DNA of 41,219 nt. Source: a bacterium (lineage in GTDB: Bacteria; Bacteroidota; Bacteroidia; Bacteroidales; P3). Location: assembly GCA_014803485.1 (NCBI GenBank), contig JAAVBQ010000029.1, positions 1 through 41,219 on the forward strand, given 5' to 3'. Of this stretch, positions 1,611 to 23,396 are shown piece after piece (position 1 is the stretch's first letter; each line of letters begins with the position of its first letter). Position numbers and translations under genes: made by a program. A model generated the notes under the pieces. The model did not search any database, was not told the DNA's origin, and saw only the letters and a program-made list of their open reading frames with translations.

Positions 1611-1962
1611 CATATACACCACCCAAGAAGAACTGACCACCGTGGTAAAACAGGTGGTCGAAAAAGTGATTGACCGCCATCTGCGCATCATGTACGCCAA
1701 TGCCCGCCATTCGGTTCAGGCCAGCCCCCGGCTTTCGTCGGTGGGTTTCCTTGTCGGCCTGGACGAGATATGCGGCTTCCTGCATTGCTCCCGTCCCACC
1801 GCCATCAAGCAACTGAACACGACTTTGAAACGCGCCGTGCTGTCCGGCAAGGGCGGGAAACGCTATATGCTGGACGGCGACATGGCGGCGCGGCTCCTCT
1901 CCCATGCAGCGGAACGGAATCGCAAAACCGTGAACACACCCAAATGCAAGAAACATGATTGA
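1603..1962 (+). CDS. DUF3853-like helix-turn-helix protein
   Basis: FLVGLDEICGFLHCSRPTAIKQLNTTLKRAVLSGKGGKRYMLDGDMAARLL matches the DUF3853 pattern. ATG at 1603 (MSDIYTTQEEL). Confidence 0.6.
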   Translation: MSDIYTTQEELTTVVKQVVEKVIDRHLRIMYANARHSVQASPRLSSVGFLVGLDEICGFLHCSRPTAIKQLNTTLKRAVLSGKGGKRYMLDGDMAARLLSHAAERNRKTVNTPKCKKHD

Positions 1963-2929
1963 CATAAGCCTTATCCGACAGATTCCCATTGAGAACTGGC
2001 TTGCCTCACGCGGCATCGAGCCGGTCCGTCAGAACGGCCACGACCTGTGGTACCACTCGCCCCTGCGACAAGGCGACCGCACCCCCTCCTTCGTGGTACA
2101 CCGCAACTCCAATTTCTGGAAGGACTTTTCTTCCGGCGAGGGCGGCAGCATCATCGACCTGGCCATGCATCTGAACCAGCGCCCCTATATCGACACCATC
2201 ATGATGTTGTCGGACTTCGCCCCCGAGGCCAAGCAATACACGCCGATGATGCCGGCATTGGGCGGCCCCGGGGATAGCGCCGCCACACCCCGCTCGTTCG
2301 AACTGCTCAAGGTGAAGCCTTTCGGCGGGAACCAAAGCCTGGTGGATTATGTGCGGCAACGGAACATAGACCCGTCCGTGGCGACACGCTACGGATTACA
2401 GGAAGTCTATTATCTCAACAGCCGTGGCCGACGGTGCTTCGCGCTCGGCTTCCCGAACGACAGCGGCGGCTACGAAATCCGCAATCCCTACTTCAAGGGC
2501 ACCATCGGCAACAAGGCCATCACCACCATTTCCGCCAAAGACCCTTCGGTGGCGGCAGTCTTCGAGGGCTTCACCGACTATCTGTCCTACCGCCAGCTGC
2601 ACCCCGAGTTCCGCGGCATGGCGGTTGTGCTCAATTCCACCGCCCTGGCGGAGCGTGCCGTCCCCGTCCTGCAGGAGTGTCGGGAAGTGACCCTGCTGCT
2701 GGACAATGATGCCGCCGGCAACGAAAAGACGGCTGAAATCACCGCCCGTCTCGCCCAGCTCGCACCGAGCTGCCAAGTAAAGGACGGACGCACCGAATAC
2801 GCCGCCCACAATGACCTGAACGATTACCTGCGGGCCTCTTCCATGAATGAAAAGACGACACGGAGGGAAGAGGTACGACGGGCGGCACCCATGCCGAACA
2901 AGCATAAATCACACACTCATAAATTTTAA
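1955..2929 (+). CDS. Toprim domain protein / DnaG-like primase of a mobile element
   Basis: N-terminal CHC2-like region (HDLWYHSPLRQGDRTPSFVVHRNSNFWKDFSSGEGGSIIDLAM) plus toprim motifs (VFEGFTDYLS, LLLDNDAAGNE). Confidence 0.8.
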   Translation: MIDISLIRQIPIENWLASRGIEPVRQNGHDLWYHSPLRQGDRTPSFVVHRNSNFWKDFSSGEGGSIIDLAMHLNQRPYIDTIMMLSDFAPEAKQYTPMMPALGGPGDSAATPRSFELLKVKPFGGNQSLVDYVRQRNIDPSVATRYGLQEVYYLNSRGRRCFALGFPNDSGGYEIRNPYFKGTIGNKAITTISAKDPSVAAVFEGFTDYLSYRQLHPEFRGMAVVLNSTALAERAVPVLQECREVTLLLDNDAAGNEKTAEITARLAQLAPSCQVKDGRTEYAAHNDLNDYLRASSMNEKTTRREEVRRAAPMPNKHKSHTHKF

Positions 2930-2940
2930 AGAGCCTCATC

Positions 2941-3435
2941 ATGATTAACCCTTTCAAGCCCTCCCCTGCCGACGCGCCCGAAAACCGCGATATATGCTTC
3001 CGATACAACCGCTATCGCCGTTATCTCGGCCGCCAGCGACGCCGTGAAAAACGGCGCAATATGTCGCTGTACGTCATGCTGCCCGTCATGGCGGCGGCCT
3101 TAATCATATCGTTGTATCACACTTTCGCACCCAAGCGGCAATTGCTGCCCACTGCGGAGAGTGCGGGCGTGAACCTTCTGCCCGACAGATTCCTCCAATC
3201 CCTCGACAACGCTTCCACACGGCTCGACAGCATCCTGCACGTGTTTATGCCCGACGACAGTGTGTCGGCCCGACAACTGCGGGAGAGGTTCGATTCCTTG
3301 GATCCGAACTTCGACCTCTTTCTGGGAGAGCCGGGGCTCGGCACCTTCCTGAATGTGGTTTCCGCCTGTGCGGAATTCGCCTCTGTCGGAAAACAGGCCG
3401 AGGCCCAAACGGAAAAACAACCCGAAAAAAGATAG
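2941..3435 (+). CDS. Single-TM hypothetical protein of the element
   Basis: 164 aa with a basic N-terminus, the hydrophobic segment MSLYVMLPVMAAALIISLYHTF and a charged C-terminal region. Tightly packed between primase and SSB. Confidence 0.5.
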   Translation: MINPFKPSPADAPENRDICFRYNRYRRYLGRQRRREKRRNMSLYVMLPVMAAALIISLYHTFAPKRQLLPTAESAGVNLLPDRFLQSLDNASTRLDSILHVFMPDDSVSARQLRERFDSLDPNFDLFLGEPGLGTFLNVVSACAEFASVGKQAEAQTEKQPEKR

Positions 3436-3437
3436 CC

Positions 3438-3860
3438 ATGGCGGGATTTTTAGCAGCGGAACTAGTCGGCCGCATCGGGCAGCCGGCAAAATGGAACGAA
3501 CGGGAACGTCGCTACCTCACGTTCTCGGTGGCGCATAATGTTACAGCGGGGCGCAACGGCATACCGCCCGAAGTGTTGTGGGTTTCCTGCATTTGGTTCG
3601 AAGCGCCCCAAAAAATTGCGGAATACCTCACCGCCGGCACGGAGGTGTTTGTGCGGGGCAGGTTGTCGGTCCACACCTACCGCACTTCGCAGGAGGAAAC
3701 CAAAGTATCGCTCGACATCACCGTCAGCGAGCTCAAAATCCTGCATACCGCCGCCCGCAAGAACGAGGACGGCGGGCAACAGGCCGCCGATCCGTCGGCT
3801 TCTCCGGAGGGCAAGGAACTGGATGCGGCGCAGGATAAAACCTTTTATAGGGATTTTTAA
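3438..3860 (+). CDS. ssb: Single-stranded DNA-binding protein (SSB family)
   Basis: OB-fold SSB pattern VGRIGQPAK..YLTFSVAHN..WVSCIWFEAPQKIAEYLTAGTEVFVRGRLSVHTY..VSLDITVSELKIL with an acidic/polar C-tail. Confidence 0.75.
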   Translation: MAGFLAAELVGRIGQPAKWNERERRYLTFSVAHNVTAGRNGIPPEVLWVSCIWFEAPQKIAEYLTAGTEVFVRGRLSVHTYRTSQEETKVSLDITVSELKILHTAARKNEDGGQQAADPSASPEGKELDAAQDKTFYRDF

Positions 3861-8215: not shown

Positions 8216-8590
8216 ATGAAAAGAGTTATCGCCACAGAGAACGCTCCCAAAGCTATCGGCCCCTACAGCCAGGCTATCGAGGCCGGCAATCTGATTTTTG
8301 TATCGGGACAGCTTCCCGTAGACCCCGCTACGGGCAAGGTAGCCGACGACATCACCTCGCAGACCGAACAGTCTCTCAAAAACCTGAAAGCCATTTTGGA
8401 AGAAGCCGGCTACACCCTCGACAATGTGGTGAAATGCACCTGCTACCTCAGTTCGATGGACGACTTCAAGGCGATGAACGAGGTTTACGCCCGCTACTTC
8501 ACCAAGGATTTCCCCGCCCGCGCCGCCTTTGCCGTGCAAAAACTGCCTATGGGCGTTTTAGTTGAAATCGAAGCTATCGCGGCGAAGTAA
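8216..8590 (+). CDS. ridA: RidA family (YjgF) enamine/imine deaminase
   Basis: [40 protein letters not shown]...[36 protein letters not shown]. Confidence 0.93.
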
Positions 8591-8592
8591 GC

Positions 8593-10203
8593 ATGATAGA
8601 ACGCAACACTCCCGAATCGGCTCTGAACGAAAGGCAGGGCGTGGACAAACTGCCCACGGTAAATCCCTATATCTCAAACAACCTACAGGCTCGCAGGGCG
8701 CAGAAGTCCATGAGCACGGAGGAGTATGTAAAAGGCATACGGGAAGGGAACCGCACGATACTGAGCCGCGCCATTACACTTATCGAGAGTACTTTACCCG
8801 AGCATCAACGGCAGGCACAGGAGATTATCGAAAAGTGCCTGCCCTACTCGGGCAATTCGTTCCGTTTGGGCATCACCGGTGTGCCGGGTGCCGGCAAAAG
8901 CACCTTTATCAATACGTTGGGGCTACACTTGGCCCGCACGGGCAAGAAGTTGGCTGTGTTGGCCATAGATCCCAGCAGCGAACGTACCAAAGGCAGCATT
9001 TTGGGCGACAAGACCCGCATGGATGAACTTGCCTGTCAGGAAAATGTCTTTATCCGTCCTTCCCCCTCGGCCGGTTCGTTGGGCGGGGTGGCCCGCAAGA
9101 CCCGCGAATCGGTGATTCTCTGCGAGGCGGCAGGGTTCACCCATATCATTATCGAAACCGTGGGTGTGGGACAATCGGAAACCGAAGCCTACAACATGGT
9201 CGATTATTTCCTGCTCCTGCAGTTGGCCAACTTGGGCGACGAACTGCAAGGCATCAAGCGGGGCATCATGGAAATGGCCGACGGTATCGCCATCAACAAG
9301 GCCGAGGGCGATTTTAGGCCCAAGGCGCTTTTGGCGCAGACCCAACTGCGCAACGCCCTTCAATTGTTTCCTCCCACCGCATCGGGCTGGAAGCCCTCTG
9401 TGGAAATCTGTTCGGCCAAAATCAACGAAGGCGTGACGGGGGTTTGGAGCGTGATTGAAGAGTTTGAACGGTTCTGCAAGCAGAACGGCAGTTTTGAACG
9501 CCGTCGCCGCGAACAACTCAAGAAAGTGTTGCAGAACTCCTTGCAAGAAAACATCTTGGCGCATTTTTTTGCGCAACCCGATACGGAAAAGAATCTGGAC
9601 GAAGCAAGGGAAAAAGTTTACGACTACAAGGTGAATCCCTACACGGCCGCTCAAAAATTGGCGGAAGATTATTTCAATTCGTTGGGGAAATCGCCCCAAA
9701 AACCGGCGGTGTCGCCTGCAAGCCCGGTGGTGCCTCCTGCGCCGAAATCCACCGCGCCACAGTCCGCCCCGAAGCCCGTCCGCTCCGACATACCGCACTT
9801 CGAACACGCCCTGGCCGTAGACGCGGCCTGCGCCGGCAATCCCGGGAAGATGGAATATCAGGGTGTACAGGTAAACAACGGCAAAGTGATTTTTCATGTC
9901 GGTCCTTTCCCCGAGGGAACCAACAACATAGGCGAGTTTTTGGCGATTGTGCACGCCTTGAGTTTCCTCAACAAACACGGCCTCACGCAGACGCCCGTCT
10001 ATTCCGATTCGGTGACGGGAATGGCTTGGGTGAGAAAGAAGAAGGCGAACACGAAAATTGTCCCCTCCGCCCGTAACCGTGAGTTGCTCGATATGGTGGC
10101 GCGGGCCGAAAACTGGCTGCAGACAAACCGTTATCAAAACCCTGTCTTGAAGTGGCAGACGGAAAAATGGGGCGAGATTCCGGCGGATTTCGGAAGAAAG
10201 TAA
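8593..10203 (+). CDS. MeaB/ArgK-family GTPase fused to a C-terminal RNase HI domain
   Basis: Residues ~1-360: LGITGVPGAGKSTFINTLG, LAVLAIDPSSERTKGSILGDKTRM, ETVGVGQSE (MeaB). Then a Pro/Ala linker and ALAVDAACAGNPGKMEYQGV...GTNNIGEFLAIVHAL...VYSDSVTGMAWV...KWQTEKWGEIPADFGRK (RNase HI with D-E-D-D residues). Confidence 0.9.
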   Translation: MIERNTPESALNERQGVDKLPTVNPYISNNLQARRAQKSMSTEEYVKGIREGNRTILSRAITLIESTLPEHQRQAQEIIEKCLPYSGNSFRLGITGVPGAGKSTFINTLGLHLARTGKKLAVLAIDPSSERTKGSILGDKTRMDELACQENVFIRPSPSAGSLGGVARKTRESVILCEAAGFTHIIIETVGVGQSETEAYNMVDYFLLLQLANLGDELQGIKRGIMEMADGIAINKAEGDFRPKALLAQTQLRNALQLFPPTASGWKPSVEICSAKINEGVTGVWSVIEEFERFCKQNGSFERRRREQLKKVLQNSLQENILAHFFAQPDTEKNLDEAREKVYDYKVNPYTAAQKLAEDYFNSLGKSPQKPAVSPASPVVPPAPKSTAPQSAPKPVRSDIPHFEHALAVDAACAGNPGKMEYQGVQVNNGKVIFHVGPFPEGTNNIGEFLAIVHALSFLNKHGLTQTPVYSDSVTGMAWVRKKKANTKIVPSARNRELLDMVARAENWLQTNRYQNPVLKWQTEKWGEIPADFGRK

Positions 10204-10225: not shown

Positions 10226-13200
10226 ATGTCAACGTATCAGCAAAACGAGTATCTTTTTGAGGTGAGTTGGGAGGTTTGCAACAAGGTTGGAGGCATCTAT
10301 ACCGTGGTGAGCACCAAAGTTCCCTCCATGCAGAAGCGTTTCGGCGAACACTATTTCGCCGTGGGGCCCGATGTATGGAAAGACAAGGCCAACCGCGATT
10401 TTATCGAAGACCGCGATTTGTATGCCGACTGGCGCAAATATGCCGAAAGCCAAGGCATATTTTTCCGCATAGGCCGCTGGAACACCGCCGGAGGCCCCAT
10501 TGCCGTGATGGTCGATTACCGCTCGCTTATCTCGCGCAAAGACGACCTTTTGGGAGCGGCCTGGCGCGACTACAACCTCGATTCGATCTCGGGTCAGTGG
10601 GATTATATCGAACCTTTCCTCTTCGGCTACGCCGCAGGGAGGCTCATTCAGACCTTCTACGAATATCATGTTTTTCCGCAAGAAAAAGTATACGCCCACT
10701 TCCACGAATGGATGACCGGCGCCGGCCTCCTCTTCCTGAAGAAGAACCAGCCACAGGTGGCCACCCTCTTCACCACGCACGCCACCGTTTTGGGACGCTG
10801 TCTGGCCGGAAACGGAATGCCTCTCTACGGCGATCTGGACAAGCTCGACCCCGATGAACTCTCTTCGCGTTTCGGCGTGCGCGCCAAATACTCGCTCGAA
10901 AAACTCTCGGCGCAACACGCCGACTGCTTCACGGCCGTGAGCGAAATCACCAACCGCGAATGCCGCGCCTTTCTCGGAAAGGACATCGACGTTCTCACAC
11001 CCAACGGCTTCGACGACGCCTTTGTGCCGTCTATGGAAGATTTTGCCGCCAAACGCAAGCAAGCCCGCGAAAAACTGCGCGAAGTCACTTCCCAACTTAT
11101 GGGGGAAGAGGTGGACGACCATACCATCTTCTTGATAAACAGCGGTCGCTATGAATTCAAAAACAAAGGCATAGACTTGTTCATCGACACGCTCGCCGCC
11201 CTCAACAAAACCCTGCCCGACGGCAAGAAAGCGGTGGCCTACCTCACCGTTCCCGCCGGTCACGGTCCGGCCCGTCAAAACCTTTCCGCGCGCGAACCCG
11301 AGCGGGATTTCGAACAAAGATTCTGCACCCACTACCTCGACGACCCCTACTCCGATCCCATTCTCAACCGTCTTAAGATAAGCGGCCTCAACAACGCCCC
11401 CGAAGACAAGGTAAAAGTGGTGTTCGTACCCTGCTATCTGGACGGCGAGGACGGCGTTTTCAACCTTACCTACTACGACCTTCTCATCGGTTTCGATATG
11501 TCGGTATTCCCCTCCTACTACGAACCGTGGGGCTACACACCTATGGAAAGCATCGCTTTCTGTATCCCGTCGGTCACCACTTCGTTGGCAGGTTTCGGAC
11601 GTTGGGTAAAAGATCATCATCCCGCTCAAAAAAGCGTAAAAGTGATTGAACGCGATGATTATAATTCTTCGGAGGCGGTTTTGGAAATGGAAACGGCCCT
11701 GCACGATTTCATCTTGCTTTCCGATAAGGAAAGAGAAGAATACCGTGCCGATGCCTACGCTCTCTCGCGTCATTTCCTGTGGTCGCATTTGGGCGAACAC
11801 TACGGACAGGCCTACGGAAAAGCCGCCGCCAAATGGGAAGCAGAGCCCTCGTTGTTGGGCAAATCGCTGCCTGCCAGCAAGGATAAAATCGAATACGACA
11901 CTTCTTCGCAGCCCCAATGGCACAAGTGCATGATAGAATACCGGCTTCCGAAGAAACTGGAAAGACTGCGCGAGTTGAGCAACAACCTGTGGTGGTGCTG
12001 GGACAATCAGGCACAGGACATGTGGGCCTATATCGAACCCGAATTGTGGGTGGAATGCGGTCATAATCCTTTGGCCCTGCTCCGTCTGTTGAGCGCGGCC
12101 CGCTTGCAGGAATTGCAGAATGATGCCGTGTTCAACAAGCTTTTGGACGAGGTTTACGCCCGCTTCACCGCCTATATCGATGAGGGCAAAAACAAAAAAT
12201 CGCCCAAGGTGGCCTATTTCTGCATGGAATATGGCCTGCACGAAAGTCTCAAGATTTATTCGGGCGGCTTGGGCATTCTGGCGGGCGACTATCTGAAGGA
12301 AGCCAGCGACGCCAATGTGGATATGCTCGGCGTGGGCCTGCTCTACCGTTATGGTTATTTCGAACAGAAGATAGACGAAAACGGCTGTCAGAACGCCCGT
12401 TACGTGCCTCAAAGCTTCTCCAAGCTTCCCATCGTGCCCGTACGTGATGAAAACGGTATATGGCGCACGGTGTCGGTATCGTTGCCAGGACGCGATCTTC
12501 TGGCCAAAATCTGGCGGTGCGACGTGGGACGCGTTCCCCTTTATCTCCTCGATACCGATATAGACGAAAACATAGAAGCCGACCGCTGCGTCACCCACCA
12601 GCTCTATGGCGGCGATTGGGAAAACCGCTTCAAGCAGGAAATGCTTCTGGGTATCGGCGGTATCCGTATGCTTCGCCAACTGGACATCCATCCCGATGTA
12701 TATCACTGCAACGAGGGACACGGTGCCTTCACGCTTCTGGAACGTCTGCGCCACTATGTGAGCAACGGTCTGGAATTCTGGCAGGCACGCGAACTGGTGC
12801 GCAATTCCTCGCTTTTCACCACCCATACGCCCGTGCCCGCCGGACATGACGCTTTCGACGAAGATATCGTGCGGACGTATCTGAACGCTTGGGCGGACCG
12901 TCTCAGAATTTCGTGGGAAGATTTCATGGCTTTGGGGCGTATCGATAAAAATCATATTCACGATAAGTTCTCGATGAGCCACTTGGCGGTGAATCTTTCG
13001 AGTGCGGTGAACGGTGTGAGCCGAATCCACGGACGGGTGTCGCAGGAGATGTTCGCCCCGCTCTATCCGGGGTTCTACCCGCAGGAAGTGCCGGTGGGTT
13101 ATGTGACCAACGGCGTGCATCTGGCCACGTGGGCGCACAAGGAATGGCAGGAACTGTTCGCCAAGTATTTCGGTGCCGGGTTCCAAAAGGATGTGTCGGA

Positions 13201-14443
13201 CGCTTCGGCATGGGAGGCCGTGCAGAAGATTCCCGCAAAGGAACTTTCGGATATCCGCAACCGCCGGCGCACGGAACTCATTGATTTTGTAAAGGAGCGC
13301 ATTCAGAAAGAATGGCCCGAGAGAGGCGAAAGCCCGCAAAATCTCATCAAGGCCATTCACGGGTTGCGTCCCGATGTGCTGACCATCGGTTTCGCGCGTC
13401 GTTTCGCCACCTATAAACGGGCGCACCTGCTCTTCAAGAACCTCGGCCGTCTGAGCAAAATCGTAAACGACCCGCAACATCCCGTGCAGTTTATCTTCTC
13501 GGGCAAGGCGCACCCCGCCGACGGAGGCGGACAGGCGCTCATCCGCCAGATTATCGAGATTTCGCAACGCGAGGAGTTTTTGGGGAAAATCGTCTTTCTC
13601 GAAAACTACAACATCGATGTGGCCAAACACATGATTCAAGGGGTGGACGTATGGATGAACACCCCCACCCGCCTCATGGAGGCTTCGGGAACCAGTGGAG
13701 AAAAAGCGCTGATGAACGGAGGTGTGAATTTCAGTGTGTTGGATGGCTGGTGGGCCGAGGGCTACCGCAAAGGTGCGGGCTGGGCGTTGCGCGAGGAACA
13801 GACCTACGCCAACCAAACCTACGAAGATGAGTTAGATGCCGAAACCATCTACACCATGCTCGAACAGGAGATTGTGCCCGCTTTCTACGAAAACGGTCAG
13901 GCAGGAAGCAACGATACGTGGCTGCAGTTCGTGCGCAACAGTTTCTCGCAGATTGCGCCGCACTACACGATGCGCCGTCAGTTGAAAGACTATTACAATC
14001 AATATTACAACTCGTTGGCAGATCGCTACAAGAAACTGCGTGCCGACAATCTGGCCCGCGTGACGGATATGACCCGCTGGATGATCCGCATCGCGTCGGC
14101 ATGGAACGCCATCCATGTAACCGGCTACGATTGCCCCGATTCCACCAACGCTCCCTTGCAGATGGGCCAGGCGGGACATTTCGGCATCACGCTTCACCTT
14201 GCCGGACTCAATCCCGATGAAATCGGGGTGGAAGTGGTGTTCGGACACAAGGAGAACGATCAGGTGAAGGAACTGATACGCACCGAGGACCTGAAGCTTG
14301 AGAAATTCGAGAACGGCAGGGCCACCTACGCGGCCGATTTGGTGCTCGACGGGGCGGGCGTATTCGACTATGCTTTCCGTATGTATCCGAAAAACAGCGA
14401 ATTTCCCGAACAAAACAAGTTCAGGATGAATCGCTGGTTGTAA
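10226..14443 (+). CDS. Glycogen/starch synthase fused to alpha-glucan phosphorylase
   Basis: N-terminal LFEVSWEVCNKVGGIYTVVSTK (GT3-like glycogen synthase). From ~residue 570, a DUF3417-like region then VAYFCMEYGLHESLKIYSGGLGILAGDYLKEASD and ...GTSGEKALMNGGVNFSVLDGWWAEGY (GT35 phosphorylase family). Confidence 0.9.
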   Translation: MSTYQQNEYLFEVSWEVCNKVGGIYTVVSTKVPSMQKRFGEHYFAVGPDVWKDKANRDFIEDRDLYADWRKYAESQGIFFRIGRWNTAGGPIAVMVDYRSLISRKDDLLGAAWRDYNLDSISGQWDYIEPFLFGYAAGRLIQTFYEYHVFPQEKVYAHFHEWMTGAGLLFLKKNQPQVATLFTTHATVLGRCLAGNGMPLYGDLDKLDPDELSSRFGVRAKYSLEKLSAQHADCFTAVSEITNRECRAFLGKDIDVLTPNGFDDAFVPSMEDFAAKRKQAREKLREVTSQLMGEEVDDHTIFLINSGRYEFKNKGIDLFIDTLAALNKTLPDGKKAVAYLTVPAGHGPARQNLSAREPERDFEQRFCTHYLDDPYSDPILNRLKISGLNNAPEDKVKVVFVPCYLDGEDGVFNLTYYDLLIGFDMSVFPSYYEPWGYTPMESIAFCIPSVTTSLAGFGRWVKDHHPAQKSVKVIERDDYNSSEAVLEMETALHDFILLSDKEREEYRADAYALSRHFLWSHLGEHYGQAYGKAAAKWEAEPSLLGKSLPASKDKIEYDTSSQPQWHKCMIEYRLPKKLERLRELSNNLWWCWDNQAQDMWAYIEPELWVECGHNPLALLRLLSAARLQELQNDAVFNKLLDEVYARFTAYIDEGKNKKSPKVAYFCMEYGLHESLKIYSGGLGILAGDYLKEASDANVDMLGVGLLYRYGYFEQKIDENGCQNARYVPQSFSKLPIVPVRDENGIWRTVSVSLPGRDLLAKIWRCDVGRVPLYLLDTDIDENIEADRCVTHQLYGGDWENRFKQEMLLGIGGIRMLRQLDIHPDVYHCNEGHGAFTLLERLRHYVSNGLEFWQARELVRNSSLFTTHTPVPAGHDAFDEDIVRTYLNAWADRLRISWEDFMALGRIDKNHIHDKFSMSHLAVNLSSAVNGVSRIHGRVSQEMFAPLYPGFYPQEVPVGYVTNGVHLATWAHKEWQELFAKYFGAGFQKDVSDASAWEAVQKIPAKELSDIRNRRRTELIDFVKERIQKEWPERGESPQNLIKAIHGLRPDVLTIGFARRFATYKRAHLLFKNLGRLSKIVNDPQHPVQFIFSGKAHPADGGGQALIRQIIEISQREEFLGKIVFLENYNIDVAKHMIQGVDVWMNTPTRLMEASGTSGEKALMNGGVNFSVLDGWWAEGYRKGAGWALREEQTYANQTYEDELDAETIYTMLEQEIVPAFYENGQAGSNDTWLQFVRNSFSQIAPHYTMRRQLKDYYNQYYNSLADRYKKLRADNLARVTDMTRWMIRIASAWNAIHVTGYDCPDSTNAPLQMGQAGHFGITLHLAGLNPDEIGVEVVFGHKENDQVKELIRTEDLKLEKFENGRATYAADLVLDGAGVFDYAFRMYPKNSEFPEQNKFRMNRWL

Positions 14444-17354: not shown

Positions 17355-18080
17355 ATGGAAACGAATCGATCCCTCCGGATAGCTTTGTCGGGTTACGGCC
17401 GCATGGGACGCGAAGTGGAGAAAGTCGCGTGCGCGAAAGGCCACGGAATCGTATGTCGCATCAACGACGGCAAAGATTGGGAAAAGGCACTGCCGGCGCT
17501 GAAAGAAGCGCAGGTGGTGATTGACTTTTCGGAACCTTCGTGTGCGGCGGAAAATATCGGAAGGTGTTTCGACCTGCATCTGCCGGTGGTGGTGGGCACC
17601 ACCGGCTGGGACGCTGCGCGCGATGCCTTGAAAGCACGTTGTCTCCAAGAGGGGCAAGCGTTGATGGAGGCTTCCAATTTCAGCATAGGGGTCTATCTGT
17701 TCATGGCCACGGCGCGGTTTCTGGCGGAGAAGATGAATGCGCAACCCCAATATGCGGCGGGCATCGAAGAGACGCATCATATCCACAAGTTGGACAAGCC
17801 CAGCGGCACGGCCATTACGTTGGCGAAAGAGGTGTGCGGAGAAATGGAACGGTATGGGGATTGGAAAAGTCTTCCGATAACCAGTTTCCGCGAGGGGGAG
17901 GTTTTCGGTATCCATACGTTGACTTTCGATTCGGAGGTAGATACGGTTACGCTTCGGCACGAGGCCAAATCGCGGCAGAGTTTCGCGGCGGGGGCCGTGC
18001 GGGCGGCCGAATGGCTCGCCGCCACCTGCGCAGGCGGAAAGCAAGGGTGGTTCGGAATGAAGGATATGATGGGTTTCTAA
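17355..18080 (+). CDS. dapB: 4-hydroxy-tetrahydrodipicolinate reductase
   Basis: LRIALSGYGRMGREVEKVA..VVIDFSEPSC..VVGTTGW..EASNFSIGVYLF..ETHHIHKLDKPSGTA. Confidence 0.93.
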   Translation: METNRSLRIALSGYGRMGREVEKVACAKGHGIVCRINDGKDWEKALPALKEAQVVIDFSEPSCAAENIGRCFDLHLPVVVGTTGWDAARDALKARCLQEGQALMEASNFSIGVYLFMATARFLAEKMNAQPQYAAGIEETHHIHKLDKPSGTAITLAKEVCGEMERYGDWKSLPITSFREGEVFGIHTLTFDSEVDTVTLRHEAKSRQSFAAGAVRAAEWLAATCAGGKQGWFGMKDMMGF

Positions 18081-18091
18081 CAGGGATAGGA

Positions 18092-21000
18092 ATGAAAGCG
18101 ATGAAGGCAAGAAGATTTCGATGGTATGTGATGATGGCGGGATGGCTCCTGGCATCGGCCGGACTGCAGGTGCGGGCACAGCATGCACAGGCCGTTCCCT
18201 ACCCTGCCGAAAGCGATCTTCACACACCCTTTCTCGACAGTATCATCAAAACGCTGAGCATAGAGGATATGGCGGCCCAGACCTTGATTCTGCGCACCAA
18301 AGCCGTTCCCACACCCGAATACATCGTCGAAATGCGCCGCCGGCTGGAAAGCCATCCTTTCGGGGGCATCTGTTTTTTCGCAGGGACCACGCCCGATATG
18401 CTCACGCTTCAGAAAGCGTATAAAGCCGCCTCGCGTCTGCCTCTGCTCTTCAGCATAGACGGAGAATTCGGAGCCGGCATGAGGCTCTCCGACCTGCATC
18501 GTTTTCCGCGTCAGCAGACGCTCGGCGCGGTTTCCGACCCGCAACTCATCTACGAAATGGGGCAGGCCGTGGGGCGACAATGCCGTCTTCTGGGCATTCA
18601 GTGGAACTTCCTGCCCGTGGCGGATGTCAACAACAATCCTCTCAACCCCGTCATCAACACCCGCTCGTTCGGAGAAAATCCCTCCGATGTGGCACGCTTG
18701 GCCTCCCTCTATCTGAAAGGTATGCAAAGCGAAGGTGTGATGGGCTCGGTGAAGCATTTTCCGGGACACGGCGACACCAAGACCGATTCGCATCTCGCCC
18801 TCCCGCTCATCGCCCTCGACAAGAATGTCTTGGACAGCATTCACCTTGCCCCTTTCCGGAAACTTATCCAAGAAGGTGTGGAGAGTGTGATGGTAGGGCA
18901 CCTCAATATCCCCGCCTACGATTCGAGCGGACTTCCCGCCAGTCTGAGCCCGCTTGTGGTGACGCGGCTTCTGCGCGAGGAATTAGGCTATCGGGGACTT
19001 ATCGTGACCGATGGTCTGGAAATGCAAGGGGTGCGCAAGACGCTACAATCCTTACCCAACTATAAGGAGACGGGCGAAGGGGCCATCGAGGTGCAGGCGC
19101 TGCGGGCGGGTTGCGACGTACTTCTGCTTCCCAAAAATCCCGAAGCGGCGGTGAAGGCCATCGCCCATGCGGTCAAGACGGGCAAACTGCCGCGCGAAAG
19201 GCTCGAAAACGCCTGCCGCCGCATTCTCTATTATAAATTCTATCCGACGTTCGCCGCCGACTACAATCGCTATCCGAGTGCGGAAACGTTGCACAACCTG
19301 CCCCGTTTCATCGAGGATTCCCTCAACGGCGCCCCCATCCGGGCCCTGCGGCAGGATATCTACGACCATGCCGTAACGGTGATGGACAATATCAACGAAG
19401 TGTTGCCGCTTTCGTCCACCGTCGCGCCCCGCAAAATCGCCCTGCATATAGGCACGGGCGAAGCCGATGAATTTTCCCGGACCTTGGCCGGATTCGACCC
19501 CTCCCTCGAACAGCTCTTTCTGGGCAAGGATTTCAACTATAGCGCGGTGGCTTCCGGCTCGTTGCTCAACCGTCTCAAAGACAAGGATCTCATTCTGCTC
19601 TCGATTACCAACACAAATTACAACCCGAATAAGAATTACGGTATCTCCGAACAGACGCTGCGCCTTTGCAAAGCCCTGCAGGATGTGCAGATTCCGGTAG
19701 TGCTCTGCGTCTTCGCCTCTCCCTACGCCTTATTGTCGTTTTACGATATGCCGCATATTTCGGCGGCCGTGTGCGGTTATCAGGATGTGGACGAAAGCAA
19801 GCGTGCGTGCGCGCGGGTACTCTACGGGGCCCTGCCCGCCACGGGACATCTGCCCGTGCGTGTGGCGAAATACTGGCCGGCGGGTTTCGGCATCACCACT
19901 TCCGCATGGATACTCGATTTCGACCGCACGTATCAGGAGTCGGGACTTTCGTCCGAAACCCGCCGGCGCATCGACTCTCTGGCCACAACGGGACTGGAGC
20001 AAAAAGCCTACCCCGGCTGCCAGATTCTGATTGCCCGGAAAGGCAAGGTAATCTACGACCAATGTTTCGGCACCGCCACCTACGATTCTCTCTCCGCCGC
20101 CGTGCAACCCAACAGTCTCTACGACTTGGCCTCGCTCACCAAAATCCTCGCCACCACGCTGGCCTATATGCGTTTGTATGAGAACGGTGAGATTGCGCTC
20201 GACGAACCGATACGCAACTATCTGCCGCGTTTGGGTCAAACCAACAAGAAACACATCACATTCCGGCAAACCCTGACCCATCAGGCAGGGCTGAAAGCCT
20301 TTATCCCCTACGTAGACCCGGACCTGATGCACAACGGCAAACCGGTCTTCGACAGTGTGTATTCGTCGAACTACCCGCTGCAGGTGGCCGACCGTCTCTT
20401 TCTGATTAAGGACTACGACAAGGAAATCCGCAAACGTATCGACGAAACGCCCGTCAACCCTCGGAGGCCGTATGTATACAGCGACCTCGGTTTCTACTAC
20501 CTCAACGAAGCCCTGCGGAAAATCACCGACACCACGCTGGACGGCTTTGTGGAACGCGAATTCTACGCGCCATTGGGATTGAAGACCTTGGGGTTCCGTC
20601 CGCTCAACCGCTTCCCGCTCTATCAGATTATGCCCACCGAAAACGATACCCTTGTGCGGAAACGCCAGATTCGGGGCTATGTGCACGACCCCTTGGCCGC
20701 CTTTTCGAACGGAGTGGCGGGTTCGGCGGGATTGTTCGGTTGCAGCCGCGATGTGGCGGTAATAGGACAGATGCTGTTGCAGAACGGCTTTTACGGCGGC
20801 ATTCAGTTCTTCGATTCCGCAACGGTCAAAGCTTTCACTTCCTGCCGTTTTTCGCAAGCCGACAACCGCAGGGGCGGAGGATTCGACAAACCGCCTTTCA
20901 AGAAAGACGACCCCTCGCCCACCTGCGCTTCCGCCTCGTCCGAAAGTTTCGGTCACAGCGGCTTCACAGGCACCTATCTGTGGGTAGACCCCTCCCTCGA

Positions 21001-21109
21001 TTTGGTATATGTGTTCCTTTCCAACCGCGTCTATCCCGATTCGCACAACAAGAAGCTGAACGTGCTCGGAATCCGTACCTCCATTCTGGAATTGCTCTAC
21101 GAAGAATAA
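18092..21109 (+). CDS. GH3 (NagZ-like) domain fused to serine beta-lactamase-like domain, secreted
   Basis: ATG at 18092 with signal sequence. GH3 motif GSVKHFPGHGDTKTDSHLALPLI; C-terminal half with SLTK (SxxK), YSD and HSGFTG motifs of class C beta-lactamase-like proteins. Confidence 0.88.
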   Translation: MKAMKARRFRWYVMMAGWLLASAGLQVRAQHAQAVPYPAESDLHTPFLDSIIKTLSIEDMAAQTLILRTKAVPTPEYIVEMRRRLESHPFGGICFFAGTTPDMLTLQKAYKAASRLPLLFSIDGEFGAGMRLSDLHRFPRQQTLGAVSDPQLIYEMGQAVGRQCRLLGIQWNFLPVADVNNNPLNPVINTRSFGENPSDVARLASLYLKGMQSEGVMGSVKHFPGHGDTKTDSHLALPLIALDKNVLDSIHLAPFRKLIQEGVESVMVGHLNIPAYDSSGLPASLSPLVVTRLLREELGYRGLIVTDGLEMQGVRKTLQSLPNYKETGEGAIEVQALRAGCDVLLLPKNPEAAVKAIAHAVKTGKLPRERLENACRRILYYKFYPTFAADYNRYPSAETLHNLPRFIEDSLNGAPIRALRQDIYDHAVTVMDNINEVLPLSSTVAPRKIALHIGTGEADEFSRTLAGFDPSLEQLFLGKDFNYSAVASGSLLNRLKDKDLILLSITNTNYNPNKNYGISEQTLRLCKALQDVQIPVVLCVFASPYALLSFYDMPHISAAVCGYQDVDESKRACARVLYGALPATGHLPVRVAKYWPAGFGITTSAWILDFDRTYQESGLSSETRRRIDSLATTGLEQKAYPGCQILIARKGKVIYDQCFGTATYDSLSAAVQPNSLYDLASLTKILATTLAYMRLYENGEIALDEPIRNYLPRLGQTNKKHITFRQTLTHQAGLKAFIPYVDPDLMHNGKPVFDSVYSSNYPLQVADRLFLIKDYDKEIRKRIDETPVNPRRPYVYSDLGFYYLNEALRKITDTTLDGFVEREFYAPLGLKTLGFRPLNRFPLYQIMPTENDTLVRKRQIRGYVHDPLAAFSNGVAGSAGLFGCSRDVAVIGQMLLQNGFYGGIQFFDSATVKAFTSCRFSQADNRRGGGFDKPPFKKDDPSPTCASASSESFGHSGFTGTYLWVDPSLDLVYVFLSNRVYPDSHNKKLNVLGIRTSILELLYEE

Positions 21110-22289: not shown

Positions 22290-23396
22290 ATGAGAGATAT
22301 GGACGATAAACCAACATTTGTATATCGGGACGGAATGTTGTCGGACACGAGATATGTAGAATGGCTATCTGATGTAAAGGCTCGCTTCCGCCAAAGTCAG
22401 ATTAAAGCCTCTATCCGCGTCAATACAGCTATGCTTGAATTCTATTGGGGTGTCGGAAGGGACTTGGTAGCATTACGTGCAGAAGAACGTTGGGGAGCAG
22501 GCGTGGTGAAACAGTTTGCCCTCGATATGCGTCAGGCTTTTCCATCAATAACCGGCTTCTCGGACTCCAATGTCAAGTACATGAAGCAATGGTATTCGTT
22601 CTATTTTGAAGGTGTTACAAAAAGCCAGCAGCCTGTTGGCCAAATAAAAAAAGAAAAAAGCCAGCAACCTACTGACCAATTGGAAATGCCCGAAATCTTC
22701 GGTCACGTGCCTTGGTTTCATCATGTGCATATCATTTCCAAATGCCAATCTCTTGACGAGGCTTTATTTTATATCAACAAAGTAGCTGAAGAGGGGTGGA
22801 GTCGCAGCATACTTGAAAACAAGATTGCGTCCAACTTTTTCCTATCTCAAGGTGCGGCCGTTACCAACTTTGAACGTACATTGCCTTCATCACAAAATTC
22901 ATTGGCCAAAGAAATGCTGAAGGACCCCTATCACTTTGATTTCTTGTCTATGAAGGCTGAATATGACGAGCGTGATTTGGAAGAAGCGCTTGTAGCCAAC
23001 ATAACCCAGTTTTTATTGGAATTGGGCAAGGGCTTCTCTTTCGTGGGACGACAAATGGAGTTGCAGATGCCCGGAGGACAGACTTTCTTTCCCGATTTGG
23101 TGTTTTATCATATTCCGCAACACAGGTATGTCATCATAGAGTTGAAAACGGTAAAATACATTCCGGAGTTTGCCGGCAAACTCAACTTCTATGTCACGGC
23201 AGTCGATGCGTTGCTCCGCGGAGAGGGGGATAATCCCTCCGTGGGGCTGATTATCTGCAAATCCACAGACAAAACCATCGTGGAATGGTCTTTAAAGGAC
23301 ATCAATAAGCCCTTGGGGGTAGCCACCTACCAATTACAGGAAGTGGTTGACCGCACAATGGCAGAACTGGAACTGAGAACAAAGAAATTCTTATAA
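22290..23396 (+). CDS. DUF1016/YhcG-type PDDEXK nuclease domain protein
   Basis: N-terminal YVEWLSDVKARFRQSQIKASIRVNTAMLEFYWGVGRDL; C-terminal GKGFSFVGRQMELQMPGGQTFFPDLVFYHIPQHRYVIIELKTVKYIPEFAGKLNFYVTAVD (PD-(D/E)xK). Confidence 0.88.
   Translation: MRDMDDKPTFVYRDGMLSDTRYVEWLSDVKARFRQSQIKASIRVNTAMLEFYWGVGRDLVALRAEERWGAGVVKQFALDMRQAFPSITGFSDSNVKYMKQWYSFYFEGVTKSQQPVGQIKKEKSQQPTDQLEMPEIFGHVPWFHHVHIISKCQSLDEALFYINKVAEEGWSRSILENKIASNFFLSQGAAVTNFERTLPSSQNSLAKEMLKDPYHFDFLSMKAEYDERDLEEALVANITQFLLELGKGFSFVGRQMELQMPGGQTFFPDLVFYHIPQHRYVIIELKTVKYIPEFAGKLNFYVTAVDALLRGEGDNPSVGLIICKSTDKTIVEWSLKDINKPLGVATYQLQEVVDRTMAELELRTKKFL

Follow-up and report, generated by a model that had tools for sequence, protein, structure and literature searches.

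A MeaB-type GTPase and an RNase HI domain encoded in one reading frame across a genus of Bacteroidales

The locus and its domain layout

The window, i.e., the whole stretch of 41,219 nucleotides analysed here, belongs to a metagenome-assembled genome (MAG; G000) of 1.71 Mb that is 77% complete and whose genus consists of uncultured bacteria from the gut. It contains a gene that runs from ATG to TAA with zero internal stops and joins a GTPase of the MeaB family to an RNase HI domain (Table 1). The original prediction of such a fusion in one uninterrupted frame was borne out by the ORF itself, by Pfam and NCBIfam matches and by 11 congeners, and the position proposed for the linker (about 9685-9780) was about right.

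Table 1. Features of the fusion gene and its immediate neighbours (positions in the window)
Feature	Positions	Strand	Basis
meaB::rnhA fusion gene, 536 aa	8593..10203	+	Unbroken ORF; same fusion in 11 congeneric genomes
MeaB/MMAA G3E GTPase domain and C-terminal dimerisation helices, residues ~45-361	8725..9675	+	PF03308, PRK09435, switch residues, Foldseek
Pro/Ala-rich linker, residues 362-399	9676..9789	+	Variable length, poor alignability, relaxed dN/dS, low pLDDT
RNase HI catalytic domain without hybrid-binding domain (HBD), residues 400-536 and stop	9790..10203	+	phmmer, invariant catalytic residues, Foldseek
ridA (Ribonuc_L-PSP), directly upstream, 2-bp gap	8216..8590	+	PF01042 (4.9e-44); same position in g9 as well as in the window's genus
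Glycogen synthase and alpha-glucan phosphorylase, 1405 aa, directly downstream, 22-bp gap	10226..14443	+	PF05693, PF11897, PF00343; kept downstream in the genus

In the AlphaFold model based on a 39-row alignment (mean pLDDT 78.0), two confident domains were separated by residues 367-404 with pLDDT <50; an earlier model built with 10 close homologues only was poor (mean pLDDT 45.9). The domain architecture is new while its parts are known, and no description of a MeaB-RNase H fusion was found in the literature searched.

Other features of the window were recorded in passing. The downstream neighbour of the fusion gene is itself a second large fusion, in which glycogen synthase, DUF3417 and alpha-glucan phosphorylase share one ORF conserved in the genus. 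Further along on the same strand are a 1189-aa ORF in which a GH3 glycosidase domain is joined to one of the beta-lactamase family (17540-21106) and a YhcG/DUF1016-type PDDEXK nuclease adjoining pdxS/pdxT-like genes (SOR/SNZ, SNO; 22290-23396). A Toprim/CHC2 zinc-finger protein near an SSB gene (1955-3860, + strand) seems to belong to a mobile element.

Conservation in the genus and evolution of the linker

The same one-frame fusion was present in 11 further congeneric genomes, with stop-to-stop lengths of 537-638 aa; in a twelfth congener (G007) the fusion gene was cut by a contig end. It has been kept although the genus members have diverged strongly (about 70% identity), and none of the 12 intact loci shows a re-split, and the order ridA, meaB::rnhA, glycogen synthase/phosphorylase is common to the genus loci whose flanks reach those genes. 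The assemblies come from several projects, and the named contigs of the genus include Candidatus Pullibacteroides excrementavium. Some record titles look wrong (L034, L038, L040, and L096): contigs of the genus are labelled Lentimicrobiaceae, Ruminococcus flavefaciens or Bacteroides sp., and a "Roseburia" contig bears a Prevotellaceae-like RNase H.

As every member is a metagenome assembly, an assembly or frameshift artefact has to be considered, and the frame at 9660-9800 had been named as the place to look. However, 11 congeneric genomes are open across the linker, and the 12 concordant assemblies show the same fusion with linkers of 31-84 aa and conserved flanking genes. The probability of an artefact is therefore negligible.

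Linkers of different genus members align poorly. Pairwise dN/dS, computed by the Nei-Gojobori method with our own script and only approximate where dS is saturated, was 0.04-0.19 for MeaB, 0.02-0.07 for RNase H and 0.27-1.7 for the linker where computable. The MeaB and RNase H halves are thus under strong purifying selection, whereas the linker is not. Most fused congeners have a short helix-like motif, approximately LLKxAxxIPHF, ahead of the RNase H domain, of which the window's own subclade keeps only IPHF. This IPHF resembles the IPYF with which the stand-alone rnhA of genus g10 begins.

The fused frame could also yield two proteins, through internal initiation or proteolysis within the linker. 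The linker is predicted to be disordered and would be accessible to proteases, in-frame GTG and TTG codons lie in the linker of G000, and in G005 (L009) an in-frame ATG at the end of the linker, just ahead of the RNase H domain, could permit a separate RNase H product. On the other hand, G005 is the sole congener with such a codon: the linkers of the 11 remaining genomes contain no in-frame ATG, and the alternative starts show no conservation. Production of two proteins is therefore regarded as quite unlikely.

The MeaB half and its client mutase

The Pfam profile MeaB (PF03308) spans residues 57-329 (E 1.1e-101; 339.9 bits, cut-off 23.1) and the NCBIfam profile MeaB (PRK09435) scores 451.6 bits against a cut-off of 329. 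The best PDB relatives of the N-terminal part are members of the MeaB/Rv1496 family, and a Foldseek search with the predicted model recovered MeaB 4jyb (E 7.6e-29). The P-loop reads GVPGAGKST. The usual base-specificity motif of MeaB is NKAD, which is found in most aligned congeners, the exceptions being G000, G004, and G009 with NKAE, as in g9. With this deviation from the NKxD pattern, the MeaB of G000 and its two nearest congeners is a putative GTP binder, which counts against the favoured explanation given below. MeaB dimers of this family control the loading of cofactor onto the mutase MutAB. Eight residues of Methylobacterium extorquens MeaB (8dpb), D92, D105, R108, E154, Q160, D182, Q185, and K188, correspond to D126, D139, R142, E188, Q194, D216, Q219, and K222 of the fusion; these switch I-III residues are invariant across the aligned congeners and matter both for signalling and for the active conformer of the GTPase (PMC9974510).

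It had been remarked that no mutase gene lies in the window. This is true but uninformative, because the client mutase is encoded elsewhere in G000, with mutB on contig C24 (5942-7480) and mutA on contig C4 (9053-10540), and both genes are present in 13/13 genus genomes. A search of 11 genus genomes gave no activation domain of B12-type methionine synthase, so that the mutase may rank among the main B12 clients of the genus. By profile score, switch residues and client mutase, the MeaB half belongs to the family, and GTPase activity and adenosylcobalamin delivery are predicted for it.

Like the MeaB/MMAA (ArgK) chaperones (M. extorquens MeaB, Rv1496), the fusion has the full domain, switches I-III, the P-loop, the C-terminal dimerisation extension and a mutase in the genome; it differs in the added C-terminal RNase HI and, in the window's species, in the NKAE motif. 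IcmF, the fused isobutyryl-CoA mutase/GTPase, also carries a MeaB-like G domain within a larger fusion, but its partner is the mutase itself and not an unrelated nuclease.

The RNase HI half and the missing HBD

RNase HI removes RNA that is paired to DNA. In the whole protein, Pfam RNase_H just exceeds its cut-off (residues 407-495; 25.9 versus 25.8 bits). NCBIfam RNaseH_Halikb (NF046109) matches with E 2e-54 at profile positions 79-211 of 211 only (184.5 bits, cut-off 320), which means that just the C-terminal catalytic part is present and the N-terminal viroplasmin/HBD part is absent. Bacillus halodurans RNase H was the best PDB relative of the C-terminal part in phmmer (1.3e-40), and the fold was recovered by Foldseek with the predicted model (6do9; E 3.9e-15, TMt 0.93). 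The catalytic residues, retained as had been proposed, are D410, E448, D472, E528, and D532; they are invariant among the aligned congeners, and their equivalents in the B. halodurans enzyme are D71, E109, D132, E188, and D192. Residue numbers 132, 188, and 192 of the latter also appear in PDB mutant titles. By active site and modelled fold, the RNase HI half is of the B. halodurans type, with cleavage of RNA/DNA hybrids as its predicted activity. Compared with RNase HI of that type (HBD plus catalytic domain; NF046109), it shares the catalytic residues, with 46-49% identity in structure matches, and differs in that the HBD is absent and the catalytic domain is placed behind MeaB.

No HBD (PF01693) was found in the window's genome or the genus. 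It is absent in g1, g7, g8, g9, and g10 and present in the other genera of the family, so that the statement that RNase HI of Bacteroidales usually carries this domain is correct for most of the family's other genera. In G000, at 77% completeness, the fused copy was the only RNase HI found, and the same is true of congeners with more complete genomes; RNase HII is present in 13/13 genus genomes. The HBD probe was also negative in seven RNase HI loci of the rumen Prevotella/Bacteroidaceae type (L085, L089, L090, L093, L096, L101, and L109), with no meaB nearby. In G019, an HBD-less RNase H (L165:4984-5784, - strand) has its C-terminus replaced by about 135 unrelated residues; it was rejected as a real variant and ascribed to a probably chimeric contig of a fragmented MAG.

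The fusion might be explained as a substitution, in which MeaB homodimers render RNase H bivalent, thereby restoring the hybrid binding or processivity lost with the HBD. MeaB dimerises via its C-terminal extension (PMC9974510), directly behind which RNase H is attached in the fusion; the HBD raises activity and processivity of a homologous enzyme (PMC3526281), and RNase H1 has been suggested to dimerise by means of its HBD (PMC7657459). The absence of the HBD from the genus is also in line with this explanation. However, unfused RNase HI without HBD occurs in g7, g9, g10, and rumen Prevotella/Bacteroidaceae, which argues that no substitute is needed where the HBD is missing, and the differing linker lengths mean that the geometry is not conserved. 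Moreover, MeaB is not known to have a surface that binds nucleic acids. Replacement of the HBD by MeaB is accordingly considered unlikely. That a GTPase now stands in the place of the viroplasmin domain is correct as a description of the present arrangement; a swap in one step is probably not, given the HBD-less unfused rnhA genes of the sister genera.

Distribution and unfused relatives

In a survey of 121 genomes of the family, the fusion was confined to the window's genus, and it was not seen among the matches listed (best first) for 148 genomes of the order or 299 of the phylum. The architecture is thus genus-wide (12 genomes), with no occurrence elsewhere in these sets. Separate adjacent ORFs, which had been envisaged for relatives, do exist outside the genus, where they are genuinely separate, and not within it. 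In g9, the TAG of meaB is followed after 4 bp by the ATG of an HBD-less rnhA in a different frame, with ridA upstream as in the window. In g10, meaB and an HBD-less rnhA are unfused with a 4-nt ATGA overlap. In g7 the pair is adjacent in one genome and on different contigs in the two others checked (G018 and G029). In the family f106, meaB is followed by an rnhA with intact HBD in 5/5 genomes. No RNase H gene followed meaB at 70 other MeaB loci with flanks.

In the MeaB tree, the fused genus formed one clade (SH-aLRT 100), adjoined by g9 (80), g10 (98) and then g7/g8 (97), with f106 near the family. The RNase H tree was too short for resolving history; in AU tests, one clade of meaB-linked rnhA (f106 and f1) was not rejected (p 0.79), nor was it demonstrated. 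Since the sister genera and f106 hold unfused neighbours, HBD-less in g9 and g10 and HBD-bearing in f106, adjacency and loss of the HBD probably preceded the fusion. The simplest order would be adjacency, then HBD loss, and then loss of the stop with a change of frame.

Three further candidates were rejected. The open frame of 591 reported for G267, which would have been another independent fusion, was due to a tool that reads through stops: in the locus concerned (L200), meaB ends at 2583 and rnhA starts at 2629. L039, which matches query residues 3-536, consists of two genes. As for a phage origin, matches to phage records number just three, with identities of 35-43%.

Discussion

The results are best explained by a vertical operon fusion, shared by the whole genus, of meaB with the only detectable RNase HI, which lacks the HBD, giving two independent enzymes on a flexible tether; we put the probability of this explanation at about 0.7. 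The graded series of unfused intermediates in relatives argues for it. The polypeptide would fold as two independent enzymes. The MeaB half would dimerise and control how MutAB, the B12-dependent methylmalonyl-CoA mutase, is loaded with adenosylcobalamin; the RNase H half would use two-metal catalysis to clear the RNA out of RNA/DNA hybrids (primers, R-loops). Each MeaB dimer would thereby bring two RNase H copies together. Most likely, both activities operate in vivo, the fusion dimerises, and it was fixed by drift or co-expression rather than for cross-regulation. However, retention without re-splitting, together with a meaB-rnhA neighbourhood perhaps older than the fusion, may fit a benefit of tethering as well.

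The original prediction offered two options, a chance operon fusion or a functional link between GTPase and RNase H. The former is favoured by the graded intermediates; the latter would require regulation of RNase H by the GTPase cycle or by MutAB binding, or regulation in the opposite direction, so that hybrid removal would be coupled to B12/propionate metabolism. Genus-wide retention and the intact switch I-III residues are compatible with such regulation. To our knowledge, however, no pathway links B12/propionate metabolism to hybrid removal, the linker is disordered and unconserved, and the domains of the actinobacterial RNase HI-CobC proteins are dissociable in vivo (PMC7466739). Cross-regulation is therefore very unlikely. 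Control or scaffolding of RNase H by the MeaB dimer and its GTP/mutase state, tying RNase HI to B12-dependent metabolism, is likewise very unlikely. If it were true, convergent selection and not drift would lie behind the two independent fusions of RNase HI, with MeaB here and with CobC in Actinobacteria.

The closest parallel is RNase HI-CobC of Actinomycetales (MSMEG_4305 / Rv2228c). In Mycobacterium smegmatis its domains are dissociable, its linker is variable and its fixation was ascribed to drift; in vivo, growth and hybrid levels were nearly unchanged when CobC was removed (PMC7466739). Both systems fuse RNase HI to an enzyme of B12 metabolism through a variable linker, and in both the two domains are under purifying selection, with RNase H more conserved. 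They differ in that RNase HI is N-terminal and the partner is the phosphatase CobC in Actinomycetales, whereas here the order is reversed and the partner is MeaB. Moreover, M. smegmatis has a second RNase H (rnhA), whereas no second RNase HI was found here. As lineage and partner are unrelated, the meaB::rnhA fusion is independent; it is not a member of the RNase HI-CobC family, although it may be similar in mode.

For the organism, annotation pipelines may label the gene only as "MeaB" and thereby miss its RNase HI. The intermediates in sister lineages (HBD-bearing neighbour, HBD-less neighbour, 4-nt overlap and full fusion) form a clean natural record of the way from an operon pair to one protein. 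Together with RNase HI-CobC, there are now two cases in which RNase HI became fused independently to a B12-related protein, and this makes the question of drift versus coupling directly testable.
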